NCBI RefSeq assembly: GCF_001748285.1
Contig: NZ_BDGT01000020.1
Location: 1 to 64,000 of the forward strand
DNA length: 64,000 nucleotides
Reading direction: 5' to 3'
From: Thermogemmatispora onikobensis
Lineage (GTDB): Bacteria > Chloroflexota > Ktedonobacteria > Ktedonobacterales > Ktedonobacteraceae
Shown here: positions 36,667-43,476 of the stretch, piece after piece
Numbering within the stretch: the first letter of the stretch is position 1
Layout of the letters: the number at the start of each line of letters is the position of its first letter
The notes under the pieces: model-generated
What the model saw: the letters and a program-made list of their open reading frames with translations, nothing else
Told to the model about the DNA's origin: nothing
The model's database searches: none
Made by a program: the position numbers and the translations under genes

Positions 36667-36970
36667 GAGTGTCGTCAATCAATACATTTATCTTCATAAT
36701 ATGAAAGGATGAGGAGCACCTTCTTCCGCCCTGGAAGGGAGCCCTCAAACGTCTTCTCTTCTTCCACTCTCTGTGCTGCATCGCCAGCCCTGGCCTGGAA
36801 GGAGGGCACTTACTTGCAGCGAAAGAATCGTGAGAGGAAATACATGGGCAGCATCAGCTTCGTGCGAGCAGAGAAACTGGAGTCTCGGGAGCCGGGGCAC
36901 GGGTGCAAGGGAGCGATCTAGGTAAGGATAGAGCAAGAAAATTGAGAGAGCAGGAGGTTTGAGAAGACTC

Positions 36971-38014
36971 ATGGTCAGGCACTGTGAGTTTTGCTACGCA
37001 GCGGTGCCCGCGGATTACACCACGTGCCCTGTCTGCGGAGGGGCGCTAAGGGCGAGCCGGGGCGAGCCAGGCCCTCCGGCCCCACCTGGTGGACAGTCAG
37101 CGACGCCGATGTCGGCGGCGCCGCGGCGCCTATCCCATTTTCACCGCAGCGAGTTCTCGAAGAAGAGCAGCTTTTCGCTGTCGCGCACGCTGCGGCTCGG
37201 CTTCGTCTTGATGCTTTTCCTGTTTCTGACAGGGTTGGGCCTGCTCATCTACGGCGGCATCTACCATCCAGCCCAACTGCGAGCGGGGGCCACGGCTACA
37301 GTCAGCGCTGCTTTGACGGCCCTCACGCAGAGTACTGCCCAGGCGCATGCCCACGCCACAGCAACAGCCATTACCCAGGCTCATGCTACGGCCACCGCTG
37401 CCGCCCAGGCGACCGTCGTTGCTGCTGCTACGGTCACCGCCCAGCAGGCCACCTACACAGCGGCCACGCAAGGAGCACCAACCCTGGTCGATCCTTTGAC
37501 CGGGCAGAACGGCAATCTGTGGACCCTGGATAGCAACCTGCGCGAGGGCTGCCTCTTCTCCGGCTCTAGCTTGCATTCGATCGTCTCCAGCGACCATGTC
37601 TTCGTCCCTTGCCTGGCATTGGCTACGAGCTTTGCCAACTTCACGCTGCAGGTTCACATGCGCCTGGCGCGAGGCGATGGCGGCGGCCTGGTCTTCCGCG
37701 CGAACGCGGGTAGCGGCACCGGCTATCTCTTCTTCGTTGGCAGCGATGGGAACTATAGCCTCATGCTCTCCGATGGGACCCAGGCGAACGCTCTGGTGGG
37801 TGGCCCAACGCCAGCTATCCATACGGCGCCTGGCCAGGATAACTTGCTGACGGTGATCGCCCGCGGCTCATCAATCCTTCTCTATGTTAATAAGCAATAC
37901 GTGGGCAGCGCCCAGGATACGAGCTTTAGCACGGGACAGATCGGGGTCTTCGCCATTGATCTTGGCCATGTGACCGATGCTGCTTTTTCCCAGCTCCAGG
38001 TCTGGTCGCGCTAA
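36971..38014 (+). CDS. Zinc-ribbon/TM/lectin-like membrane protein, paralogue 1
   Basis: 347 residues. An N-terminal zinc ribbon (Cys5, Cys8, Cys19, Cys22) precedes a short Pro-rich linker, one TM helix at about 77-96 and a 60-residue Ala/Thr/Gln repeat (about 106-166) that may form a stalk. The C-terminal domain (about 175-347) is all-beta, with LVFRANAGSGTGYLFFVGSDGNYSL, LLTVIARGSSILLYVNKQYVG and STGQIGVFAID, resembling LamG/3-keto-disaccharide-hydrolase folds. Topology suggests zinc ribbon inside and lectin outside. An ATG at 36971 lies 13 bases after AGGAGG, matching paralogue 2's unusual spacing; TTG at 36959 is too close to be preferred. Confidence 0.75.
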   Translation: MVRHCEFCYAAVPADYTTCPVCGGALRASRGEPGPPAPPGGQSATPMSAAPRRLSHFHRSEFSKKSSFSLSRTLRLGFVLMLFLFLTGLGLLIYGGIYHPAQLRAGATATVSAALTALTQSTAQAHAHATATAITQAHATATAAAQATVVAAATVTAQQATYTAATQGAPTLVDPLTGQNGNLWTLDSNLREGCLFSGSSLHSIVSSDHVFVPCLALATSFANFTLQVHMRLARGDGGGLVFRANAGSGTGYLFFVGSDGNYSLMLSDGTQANALVGGPTPAIHTAPGQDNLLTVIARGSSILLYVNKQYVGSAQDTSFSTGQIGVFAIDLGHVTDAAFSQLQVWSR

Positions 38015-38155
38015 CCATCCATGCCCGTTTCTCCTCCTGCTCTCTGTCTGCATACCTTGCCGTCAGAACCAAAGCCAGAGATAACCAGGGGCAGGAGCGG
38101 TTTTCGCCCATGCTACCGCGCCCGGCTCGCTTCTCACAAGCTATGTTGAGATCAC

Positions 38156-38184
38156 TTGGCATAGATTGAAAAGCATGTTATGCT
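38156..38184 (+). promoter_or_regulatory. Promoter of paralogue 2
   Basis: TTGGCA (38156-38161), 17-bp spacer, TATGCT (38179-38184) with a TG one base before the -10. It lies 55 bp before the ATG at 38239, implying each paralogue is transcribed separately. Confidence 0.6.
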
Positions 38185-38238
38185 GATGATGCATTCGGGA
38201 GTCACTACGCTCAGCCCTTGAGGAGGATCTTCTTACCT

Positions 38239-39969
38239 ATGCAATGCCAGATCTGCAAGGCCGAGCTGCCCGCGGGGGCACGGGTCTGCCCAGCCTGTGG
38301 CGCTCCTACTCCTTACAATGTGCTGGAGCCAGAGAAGGAGCAGACCTCGTCTTCTACGTTCGGCAGCCCAGATGATACGCTGATTAAGCACCGCTCCGAG
38401 AGGAGCGAAGAGTCGACTGGCGTCGAGGATAGCGAGCGCACCTTGCGCGCTCCCTACAGCGAGCCTACGGTACGAGCGCCTTCGCGCTGGCAGCAACCGC
38501 CGCCAGTGCCGGCCAGTGCCGAAGGGGAAGCGTCTGCCCAGCCGGGCGCGGCTCAAGCTTCGGCTTCGGGAGATGCGCATCCTCACGCCGATGCGGCAGC
38601 GGGTGCGACGCCAACGGCATCGCCAGCCAGCGGGCCAGCTGCGGCCCCTGCCCCCCCCTCTCAGCCCAGCAGTGTAGCGCCGGTCCCGCCGCCACGGGAT
38701 GTGGCTACCAGCTATGGGTGGGTGCCGCCATCTGCCAGCTCTGGCAGTCCCTCCTATCCTGGCCTGAGCGGCACTGTTCCGCCCTCGCCCGCTCAATTCC
38801 AGACAGCGGGGGCCGCGCCGCCCCCAACCGCTGGTTCCCCGCCTCAGCCGGCCAGCCAGGTTAGCCAGAGTGGTATCTTAACGCCTCCTGGACCTGGCTA
38901 TCCGCCCGCAGCAGCTCCGCAGCCAGGGCCTCTCAGTCCTTCTGGCGTCTCCTATCCTGGCTATCCACCTTCATTCTTCCCGCCCGGCCCAGCGAGTGCA
39001 GCAGGTCCTAACAGAGAGGCGGGCGCCGCCCTCCCTCAACAGAGTCAGCCTGGCTGGCCGTGGTATTCACAGCAACCAGCCCCTGGAGCACCCGCACCAG
39101 GAACAGGCCCGGGCTTTCCCCCCGCTCCCTCTGCGCCAGGACAGGCCAGAGGAGGCCGGTCTACGTTGCTACTCATTCTGGCCATCTTGCTGATTTGTGT
39201 CATGATCCTGCTTGGGAGTACCGTCTACCTCGGCGTCATCCGCCCAGGCCAGGAGCATGCCGCCGCCACGGCCACGGCTCAGAGTGCCACAGCCCTCGCT
39301 CGCAGCCACCAGACGGCGACAGCCGTTGCTCAGGCGAATGCCACGGCCACGGTGACTGCTCTGCAGGACAATCCCCAGGCGTTCTATAGCTATGTCACCT
39401 CGCAGACTCCCCAGGTGAATGACTCGCTGGCCAGCCAGAGCGCCAGCAACTGGGATGATACACGCAATAACGATGGCAGCGGCTGCCAGTTCAACAATGG
39501 CGCTCTGCATATCCTGACTACTACCAGCACCCCGGCCTGGGCCTGCGCTGCCAACGCCTCGACGTACCACAATCTGGCCTTCCAGGTTGATATGACGATG
39601 GTCAAGGGCGATAAGAGCGGCCTTCAAACTATGGCGGGCCTGGTCTTCCGCCTTAATGAGAACGCGAGCAGCTTCTATAGCTTCACCATCAGCCCCAGCG
39701 GTGCCTACCTGTTGAGTAAAGTCAATAACGGGAATGTCACCTATCTCTCTGAGGGCGTCAGCTCCGCCATTAACGCCAATCTCGGCGAGAGTAATACCCT
39801 GACCGTCATCGCCCAGGAGAATACGCTCATGCTGTTCGTGAACCAGCACTACCTTTCTACGGCTCACGACAGCACCTTGACGAGCGGAATGGTCGGTCTG
39901 ATTGCGCTGAACGCCGGCAAGATCTCCGCCGACGCTGCCTTCCAGAATGCGAAAATCTGGCGGCTGTAG
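38239..39969 (+). CDS. Zinc-ribbon/TM/lectin-like membrane protein, paralogue 2
   Basis: 576 residues, the longest of the three. Zinc ribbon Cys3, Cys6, Cys17, Cys20 (MQCQICKAELPAGARVCPAC), then about 260 residues of Pro/Ala/Ser/Gln-rich disordered linker. One TM helix follows (about 316-340, STLLLILAILLICVMILLG), then a short Ala/Thr stalk (EHAAATATAQSATALARS) and a C-terminal lectin-like domain with LVFRLNENASSFYSFTISPSG, NTLTVIAQENTLMLFVNQHY and TSGMVGLIALN. SD GAGGAGG is twelve bases before the ATG at 38239; the earlier TTG at 38218 is rejected. Domain sequence parallels paralogues 1 and 3. Ligand unknown; carbohydrate is a guess. Confidence 0.75.
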   Translation: MQCQICKAELPAGARVCPACGAPTPYNVLEPEKEQTSSSTFGSPDDTLIKHRSERSEESTGVEDSERTLRAPYSEPTVRAPSRWQQPPPVPASAEGEASAQPGAAQASASGDAHPHADAAAGATPTASPASGPAAAPAPPSQPSSVAPVPPPRDVATSYGWVPPSASSGSPSYPGLSGTVPPSPAQFQTAGAAPPPTAGSPPQPASQVSQSGILTPPGPGYPPAAAPQPGPLSPSGVSYPGYPPSFFPPGPASAAGPNREAGAALPQQSQPGWPWYSQQPAPGAPAPGTGPGFPPAPSAPGQARGGRSTLLLILAILLICVMILLGSTVYLGVIRPGQEHAAATATAQSATALARSHQTATAVAQANATATVTALQDNPQAFYSYVTSQTPQVNDSLASQSASNWDDTRNNDGSGCQFNNGALHILTTTSTPAWACAANASTYHNLAFQVDMTMVKGDKSGLQTMAGLVFRLNENASSFYSFTISPSGAYLLSKVNNGNVTYLSEGVSSAINANLGESNTLTVIAQENTLMLFVNQHYLSTAHDSTLTSGMVGLIALNAGKISADAAFQNAKIWRL

Positions 39970-40188
39970 GCAGGCTTTCGAACGGGAGGAAGGAGATCAG
40001 CGGTGGTAATGTGACGAGAGGCGAGCCGCTGGCCCAAGTGTAGTGTAGAAATACCGCTCACCACGGGGATGGGGCAGGCCCTGCCCTCCCCGAGACTGCC
40101 AGCACTCGCGCCCTTCTCTCCCGCTGGAGGGTCTTCTGCACGCTTCGCCAGGTCCAGGCAGAGCTGGTCTTGTATACAGTGTTCATGC

Positions 40189-40194
40189 TATAGT
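40189..40194 (+). promoter_or_regulatory. -10 element (TGC-TATAGT) before paralogue 3
   Basis: TATAGT at 40189-40194, preceded by TGC, 55 bp upstream of the ATG at 40249. The -35 is not convincing. Position and form match the other extended -10 sites. Confidence 0.45.
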
Positions 40195-40248
40195 AGCAGA
40201 GAGGAGCAGAAGGAGAGAAGCCTCTTGCCAAGCGAGGGAGTGCCATCT

Positions 40249-41337
40249 ATGCCAGGAAAGCAGCACTCAAGCCGCCCACAGGTGAGCACTGGCGGCCCCG
40301 AACCGGAGCTACCACCACCTCACACGTGGACGTCAAGAGCAGAGGGGAGCAGCGAGATTTCCGCCGAAAGGCCAACAGAAGGAGGAGGGTCACAAGAGCA
40401 GGCTGAGACAGGGACGCTCGTGCAGACGCCTGCTGCTGAGCCTGCCCCTTTCCGGCTGCGCTCTGCCGGACTCTCGCGCGGTCAGTGGTGGCTCTATGGG
40501 TCGCTGGCCGCTCTGCTGCTGCTGACAAGCACGGCTCTGCTCGTGATGCTGACCACGGGCCAGGCCACGGCCATACTTCAGGCCCAGGCCACTGCCCGCG
40601 CCCAGGCCACGCGCCAGGTTCTGGCCAGCGCCAGCGCTCAGGCTGCAGGCACCGCGCAGGCCCTGGCAACCCAACAGGCGGCGATCTACGCCACCGCCAC
40701 AGCCCAGAGCCTGGCAACAGCTCAGAATAGCCAGCTCACAGCGACCGCTACCGCCTACGACGAGCGCCTGAGCCAGATTACGCAGGGCCAGCCGGCCTTC
40801 AGCGACGATCTGAGCAGCCTCGATGAGAGCCACGGCTGGGACCAGGGCTTCAGCGACGCCGGCACCGGCTGCTTCTTCAACAACGGCGCCTATGAGGCGC
40901 GAGCCGGTCACCCCGGACTGCTACAACCATGCCTCGCTCACAATACAAACTTCAGCCAGTTTGTCTACGAGGTCCAGCTGACAATTACCCACGGCCAGGA
41001 GGCCGGGCTGCTCTTCCGCGCCAGCAGCGATGGCCAGAGCTACTATCTTTTCCGCGTGAGCATCAACGGCTCGTTCGCTCTTGATCTCTACCAGGGTCAG
41101 AGGGGCCAAACCCTGCTGACCGGCTTTAGCCCGGCGATCAGCAGCGGCCTGACGCAGACGAACATTCTGGGCGTGCTGGTCAGTCAGGAGAGCATCGTGC
41201 TCTATGTCAACGAGCAGGCCGTGGGCAGCGTGCAGGACCACACTCTCTCAACGGGGGCGATCGGCGTCGTCGCCATCGATGATCAGCTGCCCTGTGTGGC
41301 TCAGTTCAGCAATGCCCAGGTCTGGGCCCTTCACTAG
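40249..41337 (+). CDS. TM/lectin-like membrane protein, paralogue 3 (no zinc ribbon)
   Basis: 362 residues. It lacks the zinc ribbon of its two upstream paralogues; the N-terminal 80 residues are polar and disordered. One TM helix (about 85-108, WWLYGSLAALLLLTSTALLV) is followed by an Ala/Thr/Gln stalk (ATAILQAQATARAQATRQVL). The C-terminal lectin-like domain shows LLFRASSDGQSYYLFRVSINGS, NILGVLVSQESIVLYVNEQAVG and STGAIGVVAID. SD GAGGGAG is eight bases before the ATG at 40249; the in-frame region above it (from 40069) is upstream leader. Three tandem copies with separate promoters indicate local gene duplication. Function unknown. Confidence 0.73.
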   Translation: MPGKQHSSRPQVSTGGPEPELPPPHTWTSRAEGSSEISAERPTEGGGSQEQAETGTLVQTPAAEPAPFRLRSAGLSRGQWWLYGSLAALLLLTSTALLVMLTTGQATAILQAQATARAQATRQVLASASAQAAGTAQALATQQAAIYATATAQSLATAQNSQLTATATAYDERLSQITQGQPAFSDDLSSLDESHGWDQGFSDAGTGCFFNNGAYEARAGHPGLLQPCLAHNTNFSQFVYEVQLTITHGQEAGLLFRASSDGQSYYLFRVSINGSFALDLYQGQRGQTLLTGFSPAISSGLTQTNILGVLVSQESIVLYVNEQAVGSVQDHTLSTGAIGVVAIDDQLPCVAQFSNAQVWALH

Positions 41338-41423
41338 TGAGCCGTCTGCGCCGTGGTCTGGAATCAGACAGGCTGCAGCCACCAGTCCGGAGCGCTTTGT
41401 GCATAAAGGCATGCCGCTGGGGG

Positions 41424-41443
41424 CCCCTGGCTTCATCCAGGGG
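41424..41443 (+). other. Hairpin sharing an 11-bp core with the IS605-like end
   Basis: CCCCTGG-CTTCAT-CCAGGGG. The string GCCCCTGGCTT (41423-41433) recurs at 41673-41683 in the same orientation, where it starts the second hairpin. Both look like ends of IS200/IS605-family elements. Confidence 0.45.
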
Positions 41444-41478
41444 AGAAAGATGGCATCCTGCTCACCCTCACCCTGGGG

Positions 41479-41508
41479 TTGACTCAGCCGACTCTCCTAT
41501 GGTATCCT
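41479..41508 (+). promoter_or_regulatory. Candidate promoter of the serS leader
   Basis: TTGACT (41479-41484), 18-bp spacer, TATCCT (41503-41508). If used, transcription starts near 41516 and runs through the IS605-like segment into the T-box leader. The TTGAC is alternatively the left boundary of the mobile remnant. Confidence 0.4.
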
Positions 41509-41701
41509 GCTTTTCAGGCTGAAGGCACTGGCTTGTTTGTGACCAGCAACAGCTGTGCCTCATCGTGCAGAGGGGCGGCGGAGCAAACGGGTCAATTGCG
41601 CTCTCCTGTCCTACGGGGCGGTGGGCTGCTGTCAACCAGCCCTGAAGCCCGGGCCAACACAGCTGCGGGCAAGCCCCTGGCTTGAGTCAGGGGTCGTTGA
41701 C
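41484..41701 (+). mobile_element. IS200/IS605-like non-coding remnant with omega-RNA-like 3' end
   Basis: About 218 bp flanked by TTGAC at both sides (41479-41483 and 41697-41701), as expected for a target pentamer and right-end cleavage site of ISDra2-like elements. The right half contains CTGTCAACCAGCCCTGAAGC and ends in the hairpin CCCCTG-GCTTGAGT-CAGGGG (41674-41693). From memory, this order resembles the omega-RNA scaffold and right end that follow tnpB. No tnpA or tnpB reading frame remains. It ends exactly where the serS T-box leader begins. This is inference from motif memory; it may simply be a non-autonomous element. Confidence 0.45.
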
Positions 41702-41992
41702 TGAGTAAAGGCGAAGAACAGGACAAGTACTTCATGCCTGCGAGCGCTAGAGAGCTGCGGGTTGGTGCAACGCAGTGCCGGGGATGAGGGAATCCACCTG
41801 GGAGCCCACGCGATGAGCGTTTGCGGTGGCCTCCGTTAACAGGCCAAATGAGGGATGGCTCTGCACAGCCAGTTTCTAGAGTCTCTTGCTCTCTGGCTAG
41901 CCGGCAACAGAGCATCTAAACAAAGGTGGCACCACGATCGACGCAGCAATCAGCGTTGTCGTCCTTGCACAGTGGACGATAACGCTTTTTTT
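41702..41992 (+). ncRNA. Serine T-box riboswitch upstream of serS
   Basis: Stem I elements are present (AGAGAGCTGCGGGTTGGTGC, then GAATCCACCTGGGAGCC). The specifier is UCC, a serine codon (41793-41795), followed by the usual purine. The antiterminator is exact: AAGG (41923-41926) and ACGA (41934-41937) flank the 7-nt bulge UGGCACC and pair with UCGU (41959-41962) and CCUU (41963-41966). The bulge UGGC matches a tRNA 3' end GCCA, as for tRNA-Ser with discriminator G73. The competing terminator GCGTTGTCGTCC/GGACGATAACGC (41953-41985) is followed by seven T (41986-41992). Uncharged tRNA-Ser should switch on serS. The remaining leader to 42195 has no gene. Confidence 0.92.
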
Positions 41993-42195
41993 ATTGCTGC
42001 AGGACCGTTATAGGCGGTCAGTTGTCAGGCTCGCGGCCCCCTGGCCGGTTCGGGCTGCACCTGACGTCTTGCAGCCAGGGCGGATCATAGTGATCTGACC
42101 ATCCCGGCCAGCGAGCTGGCGCGCGCGACCTGCTACAGACCAAGGCCCAAGACCCATGTTTGAGGACGAAAAGAGCAGAAGGAGGGATGTTTTTC

Positions 42196-43476
42196 GTGCT
42201 GGATCTTGGCTTCATTCGCAATCATCCAGAGCTTGTCAAAGAGGCTGTACGCCTCAAGCAGAGCGATTTTGATGTCGACCAGTTTCTGGCCCTTGACCGC
42301 CAGGTCCTCGAACTGCAGCATCAGGTCGAGATGCTGCGGGCAGAGCAGAACCAGCTTTCGAAGCGCATCGGACAGGCCGGCAAAGACAAGGAGCTGCGCG
42401 AGTCCCTCATCGTCCAGGGCAAACAGCTGGCGGCACGCCTCAAGGAACTGGAGCCGCAGCTGGAGGCTCTCAGCGAGCAGCGCCAGCAGCTCCTCTACCT
42501 GGTGCCGCAGATTCCTGATCCCTCGGCTCCAGTCGGCACGAGCGAAGAGGACAACGTCCCAGTGCGCTATTGGGGAGAGAAGCCACAGTTCGACTTCCCG
42601 CTGCTGGACCACTATACGCTGATGCAGAAGCTGGACCTGGTCGACATGGAGCGCGCGGCAAAAATCGCCGGCTCGCGCAGCTATGTGCTCAAAGGCGATG
42701 CCGCTCGTCTTGAGCTGGCCCTCTTGCACTTCGCTTTCGATCGCATCGCCGCCAAGGGCTTTACGCCCCTGATCGTGCCGGCGATGGCGCGCGAGTTCTG
42801 TTTCATCGGCAACGGCCAGTTTCCGCGTGGACGGGACCAGGTCTATGCCCTGGAAGGCGAGGACACTTTCCTTGTGGGAACCGCCGAGGTCTCGATTACG
42901 GGCATGTTCAAGGACGAGATTCTTAGCTACGAGGAGCTGCCCCTGACCTTTGTCGGCTTCTGCCCCTGCTTCCGCAAAGAGGCCGGCACCTATGGCAAGG
43001 ACACGCGCGGCGTCTTCCGCGTCCATCAGTTCAACAAGGTCGAGCAGTATGTGATCTGCGAAGCCTCACACGAGGAGTCGGTGCGCTGGCACGAGCAGCT
43101 GATCCACAACGCCGAGGAGCTGGTTCAGGCCCTGGAGATCCCCTATCGCGTGGTCAATGTCTGCACCGGTGACATGGGCGATGGCAAGGTCGGCATGTAC
43201 GATCTGGAATGCTGGGTTCCCAGCGAGGGCCGCTATCGCGAGACGCACTCTTGCTCGTACTTCCACGACTGGCAGGCGCGGCGCGTCAATATTCGCTACC
43301 GCGATCGCGACGGCAAGGTGAAGTTCGTGCACACGCTCAATAACACGGCCATTGCATCGCCGCGCATCCTGATCCCGCTGCTGGAAAACCATCAGCAGCC
43401 CGATGGCTCGGTACGCATTCCCGAGGCCCTGCGCCCCTATCTGGGCGGCCAGGAGGTGCTGCGGGCACGCCACTGA
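42196..43476 (+). CDS. serS: Seryl-tRNA synthetase
   Basis: Class II synthetase that charges tRNA-Ser. 426 residues: an N-terminal coiled-coil arm (about 1-100: RNHPELVKEAVRLKQSDFDV, VEMLRAEQNQLSKRIGQAGKD), then the catalytic domain with motif 2 FRKEAGTYGKDTRGVFRVHQF and motif 3-like text LLENHQQPDGSVRIPEAL. NNTAIASPR replaces the usual NGSA/NGTA string, a tolerated variant. The start is the GTG at 42196, giving MLDLGFIRNHPELV as in other SerRS; AAGGAGGG lies nine bases before it but would abut the ATG at 42187. A serine T-box riboswitch precedes the gene. Confidence 0.97.
   Translation: MLDLGFIRNHPELVKEAVRLKQSDFDVDQFLALDRQVLELQHQVEMLRAEQNQLSKRIGQAGKDKELRESLIVQGKQLAARLKELEPQLEALSEQRQQLLYLVPQIPDPSAPVGTSEEDNVPVRYWGEKPQFDFPLLDHYTLMQKLDLVDMERAAKIAGSRSYVLKGDAARLELALLHFAFDRIAAKGFTPLIVPAMAREFCFIGNGQFPRGRDQVYALEGEDTFLVGTAEVSITGMFKDEILSYEELPLTFVGFCPCFRKEAGTYGKDTRGVFRVHQFNKVEQYVICEASHEESVRWHEQLIHNAEELVQALEIPYRVVNVCTGDMGDGKVGMYDLECWVPSEGRYRETHSCSYFHDWQARRVNIRYRDRDGKVKFVHTLNNTAIASPRILIPLLENHQQPDGSVRIPEALRPYLGGQEVLRARH

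Follow-up and report, generated by a model that had tools for sequence, protein, structure and literature searches.

The serS gene of Thermogemmatispora onikobensis, which encodes the essential seryl-tRNA synthetase, is preceded by a T-box leader, and directly upstream of that leader lies a non-coding segment resembling the right end and omega-RNA of a TnpB transposon. This locus raises the question of what the segment is, how it came to adjoin the T-box, and whether it has a part in serS expression. Comparison with related copies and alleles shows positions 41405-41701 of the window (the whole stretch of 64,000 nucleotides analysed here) to be a 297-bp, plus-strand, non-autonomous, tnpB-derived element of IS200/IS605 type (PATE-like) that entered behind a CCAT motif upstream of serS and left no target duplication (Table 1). 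Our best explanation of the locus as a whole, to which we give a probability of about 0.72, joins this identity to the loss of 106 bp containing the native serS promoter and to an element promoter that would now drive serS.

Table 1. Features of the element and of the serS upstream region, in window coordinates.
Feature	Position	Strand	Basis or remark
Insertion target (TAM-like), GCAT	41401..41404	+	reads CCAT in T. carboxidivorans and T. aurantia; almost every other copy has CCAT/CCAC
Whole non-autonomous IS200/IS605-type element (PATE-like)	41405..41701	+	empty serS sites at L021/L022/L038 and alignment of 21 copies
Left-end subterminal hairpin, GCCCCTGGCTTCATCCAGGGG	41423..41443	+	kept in copies possessing a left end
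Promoter-like TTGACT-18-TATCCT, candidate serS promoter	41479..41508	+	position conserved in family; same position precedes tnpB in L094
Leader module (GAGGC...GCCTC segment)	41515..41598	+	common to the 5′ leader of the tnpB-only element L094
tnpB 3′ tail and right end, omega-RNA scaffold-like	41599..41701	+	88-89% identity to DNA directly behind tnpB at C49 and C11 (own genome)
Right-end hairpin	41673..41693	+	sequence; GTTGAC next, element end 41701
Right terminus GTTGAC; right cleavage site by analogy with IS608/ISDra2	41696..41701	+	kept in nearly all listed right ends
Guide-equivalent bases, TGAGTAAAGGCGAAGAACAG; first bases of T-box region and deletion junction	41702..41721	+	once per genome in six genomes; ACCAT precedes in L021, L022, L037
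T-box leader	41705..41969	+	RF00230; begins 3 nt after element end
T-box terminator-like stem and T-run	41951..41990	+	read from sequence; not picked up by a simple scan
serS (seryl-tRNA synthetase)	42187..43476	+	start chosen is the ATG after AGGAGG

A search of the organism's own genome with 41390-41760 returned 14 matching places (best non-self E 1e-45), three of which (C49, C11 and C85) lie directly behind tnpB (PF07282). This comparison with same-genome IS605/TnpB elements, proposed in the initial annotation, excludes a lack of similarity to IS605-family ends. Together with the empty sites of relatives, the occurrence of the element's right ~100 bp directly behind tnpB bears out the earlier view that the segment is the right end of an IS605/TnpB element and includes an omega-RNA-like part. 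Across six Thermogemmatispora genomes, partial and full matches number in the dozens, and the family alignment comprises 21 distinct full-length copies (the genomes hold at least that many) of 270-318 bp, too short for a transposase. Judged from these copies, the element has a hairpin at its left end and a sigma-70-like promoter motif inside, then a short leader, and closes with a tnpB tail and the right end. In nearly all copies, CCAT/CCAC and AAAG-like bases lead into a CCCCTGG...CCAGGGG hairpin on the left, and the copy closes on the right with a similar hairpin and GTTGAC. The two hairpins of the window copy are 86% identical over 21 nt, and subterminal palindromes are thus present at both ends; no inverted pairs indicative of terminal inverted repeats were found in 41300-42100. 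Both hairpins had been noticed before, and the second, reported near 41424, proves to be the element's own left-end hairpin. In addition, CTGTCAACCAGCCCTGAAGC is present at 41629-41648. The element contains no complete tnpA or tnpB, as first described, although the frame for the last ~30 TnpB residues is still open (end of ORF 41479-41685) because the same DNA doubles as the right end.

The borders follow from the empty sites and the alignment of copies. The initial annotation had placed the element between TTGAC pentamers at 41484-41701; its right end, GTTGAC at 41701, stands, but the left border at 41484 is rejected in favor of 41405, which makes the TTGAC at 41479 internal. Empty sites were found at three loci, namely serS, the C17 copy of the same genome, and a T. 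tikiterensis copy (L065). Joined-flank searches recovered the C17 empty site as TTCCAT| in four relatives, with a less conserved right-hand sequence, and the T. tikiterensis site as TTCCAC|TCATG in two relatives. Target duplication was absent at the empty-site loci compared, and insertion 3′ of CCAT/CCAC without duplication is the manner of IS200/IS605 elements, as for ISDra2 and IS608 (PMC8612924). Element-free species with an intact serS leader, which had been named as potential counter-evidence, do exist, but they carry an empty site, as expected.

The parentage of the short family is suggested by L094, a 1.47-kb tnpB-only element of T. tikiterensis that matches the family in its left end, leader module and right end, and also holds tnpB and a TTGACA-18-TACCCT promoter-like site. 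Because L094 shows a complete tnpB-only layout with the same ends, promoter and leader, internal deletion from such an element is the best account of the short family. Two intact TnpB proteins, of 402 aa (C49) and 406 aa (C85), are encoded in the organism's own genome, and no Y1 transposase gene (Y1_Tnp) was found there. Y1 genes occur in two of the six genus genomes, T. tikiterensis (G001) and HOG59 (G002), and no ends matching this family were seen at these genes. Other T. tikiterensis elements with the same ends are larger. Those of 2.8-3.1 kb (L091:525-3320, and likewise upstream of tnpB in L015) carry a small HTH-like ORF and a ~208-aa ORF ahead of tnpB; the latter has a Cys-rich C-terminus and no Pfam match, and it is possibly an unknown TnpB partner. 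Two stretches of 7.4-7.9 kb between family left and right ends (L095:576-8000 and L096:530-8426) have parallel gene content, with parts masked, and may be large cargo-carrying elements. Among distant TnpB copies of Ktedonobacteria (G029, G032), several were matched across one in-frame stop, mostly TAG, copy after copy.

The history of the insertion can be read from the nearest serS loci, those of T. carboxidivorans, T. aurantia, T. tikiterensis and two MAGs (protein identity 96-98%). The element is absent at serS in T. tikiterensis, HOG59 and HOG45 (G004), and in these three and T. aurantia (G005) a TTGACA-18-TATCCT promoter is conserved shortly before the T-box. The T. aurantia element lies behind GTCCAT|; next come CTCGTCAATCC..., a stretch of 106 bp that holds the native promoter and ends in ACCAT, and then the T-box. 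In the window and in T. carboxidivorans (G003), TGAGTAAAGG, the sequence behind ACCAT, follows immediately on the right end (GTTGAC/ATTGAC). The 106 bp missing from these two alleles run from the element right end exactly to behind the next CCAT and include the native promoter. The comparison shows that the element once stood 106 bp upstream of the T-box, an ancestral state preserved in T. aurantia, and that the DNA between GTTGAC| and ACCAT|TGAGTAAAGG, including the native serS promoter, was lost in the common ancestor of T. carboxidivorans and the window species. On serS these two group as sisters (94.7% serS identity, node support 0.999), and a single deletion event therefore suffices. The loss may have arisen when a transposase joined the right end to the second CCAT target, giving an adjacent deletion; alternatively, a second copy may have inserted at that CCAT and recombined with the first, with the same product. 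AACCAT serves as the target for another family copy (L106). The element is present in T. aurantia and, in the serS comparison, absent from its closest relatives, a distribution explained either by two precise (scarless) losses or by a separate arrival or more complex insertion history. Precise excision is normal for IS200/IS605-class elements.

Two further observations concern the neighborhood of serS. Downstream of the T-box terminator and before the serS start, T. aurantia lacks approximately 83 bp that the window has (42039-42120). Upstream, three consecutive co-directional ORFs (36959-41337) have alike C-terminal domains, Laminin_G_3-like in the first, and look like a tandem paralogue array.

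Because the 106-bp loss removed the native promoter, the promoter-like site within the element is the best candidate for the serS promoter, and serS is probably transcribed from it. It is the only such site found in 41300-42200, where shuffled sequences average 0.2. At this position, 18 of the 21 copies score at least 8/12, compared with ~2.5% of random positions, which, as the copies are related, shows conservation and is not independent evidence. In the three serS sequences with the element, the −35 reads TTGAGA in T. aurantia, where the native promoter is kept, and TTGACT in both species without it. The motif itself had been recognized in the initial annotation as overlapping the left border; it is instead internal and kept across the family. 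The accompanying suggestion that the element is transcribed with serS is strengthened by the native promoter loss, with promoter use itself deduced. The serS mRNA would then begin with a ~187-nt omega-RNA-like leader (start ~41515) and continue into the T-box, which the element adjoins as originally described and which would still regulate serS through tRNA-Ser-dependent attenuation. The T-box matches RF00230 over its full length (92.2 bits, E 1.1e-20), 0.8 bits under the gathering score of 93; with the gathering score as threshold, no Rfam family was matched anywhere in the window. A UCC (Ser) specifier at 41793-41795 is suggested by alignment with the Rfam consensus.

The same arrangement could be reached if the element were decayed mobile DNA of no consequence, with serS transcribed by read-through from the upstream gene at 40069-41337 or from another promoter. 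That ORF points the same way as serS and stops 141 bp short of the promoter-like site; a scan for terminator-like sites from the ORF to the T-box gave none, and the genome yielded no transposase. However, the sole promoter-like site found is retained in both species without the native promoter, and four other genus genomes have a dedicated promoter-like site beside the T-box. We therefore regard an inert fossil as unlikely, if the most credible of the alternatives to promoter takeover.

A second possibility, compatible with promoter takeover and not exclusive of it, is that the transcript 41515-41721 is processed to an omega-RNA that would guide a TnpB encoded elsewhere to element-less serS alleles. 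In known systems, TnpB processes its own mRNA and the flank after the right end acts as the guide (PMC8612924, PMC10278001). By sequence and position, the right part of the element fits this TnpB omega-RNA (reRNA) layout of the tnpB 3′ end plus right end, with the flank as guide. The 20 nt behind the right end are identical in the T. tikiterensis, HOG59 and T. aurantia alleles, where they follow ACCAT, which has the same core as the insertion target. Since this 20-mer is unique per genome and identical after ACCAT in the relatives' alleles, it would be a suitable TnpB target should the RNA act as a guide. Of the two intact TnpB ORFs, the one at C49 aligns to solved TnpB/Cas12f proteins over the RuvC region. 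The predicted stem-loops are retained across copies (96% of cells paired), and the GUCAAC-GUUGAC pairing of a terminal pseudoknot is available in most of them. In contrast, covariation of the predicted pairs across copies did not rise above shuffles and so lends no support to an RNA structure, the window copy folds only modestly better than shuffles (z −1.97), and there is no Rfam match at gathering score. An active guide RNA thus seems improbable. It is more doubtful still that the 5′ part of the serS messenger would itself be a TnpB guide RNA, with which the resident TnpB would cut ancestral-type leaders (ACCAT-TGAGTAAAGGCGAAG...), so that the nuclease would hold the swapped promoter in place.

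An IscB/HEARO element in reverse orientation, to which a weak RF02033 match on the minus strand (41595-41701, 21.2 bits, E 0.047) might point, is rejected as very improbable and largely refuted, as the score is far below the gathering score of 83 and the sequence sits in sense orientation behind tnpB in its own genome and in relatives. Hairpins are common in GC-rich DNA, and this is all that favors a chance resemblance by hairpins of the serS leader itself, a reading already refuted by the 21 aligned copies, the empty sites at three loci, and the tnpB adjacency.

Taken as promoter takeover, the alleles provide a natural stepwise record, from the empty site, to insertion with the native promoter, to insertion with the native promoter deleted, in which both deletion ends are transposon motifs. 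The record concerns a transposase-less IS605-type element that would have become the promoter source of an essential gene under T-box control. Beyond the initial annotation, our comparison adds the left border, the left-end nature of the second hairpin, the multi-copy family and the 106-bp deletion; the central addition is, on the aligned alleles, the loss of a promoter with transposon motifs at both limits. A further outcome is the definition of a bacterial PATE-like family in which a promoter and an omega-RNA-like scaffold are retained together, so that trans guide use by a resident TnpB becomes directly testable. Targeted literature look-ups returned no text on TnpB-less omega-RNA loci or PATEs, nor on orphan or non-autonomous cases.

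The closest described kind of element is the PATE (palindrome-associated transposable element) of Haloquadratum walsbyi (PMC3119063). Both share near-terminal palindromes, ends as in IS605-type elements, an origin by internal deletion, and the lack of terminal inverted repeats, target duplication and a transposase gene. In contrast to the Haloquadratum PATEs, the present family is bacterial (Chloroflexota) and retains a promoter-like site and a tnpB tail, and one copy is fused to the leader of an essential gene after loss of that gene's promoter. With ISDra2/IS608 and TnpB reRNA (PMC8612924, PMC10097598), the family has in common a short, fixed target motif, equal to the TAM, with insertion on its 3′ side, a right end and tnpB 3′ part as RNA scaffold with the flank as guide (here as read from sequence and position), and terminal bases able to pair with an upstream segment. 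The target is CCAT/CCAC here and TTGAT/TTAC there, tnpA and tnpB are missing from this element, and its expression and guide role are putative. The leader at 41705-41969, upstream of serS, is a T-box like other RF00230 members, and it differs in its ~187-nt 5′ extension of mobile-element origin. Finally, an element-borne promoter that takes a neighboring gene, with an adjacent deletion, is familiar from reviewed insertion sequences (PMC9330008); whereas those cases concern resistance genes, here a promoter from a transposase-less, tnpB-type element would serve an essential, T-box-regulated tRNA synthetase.
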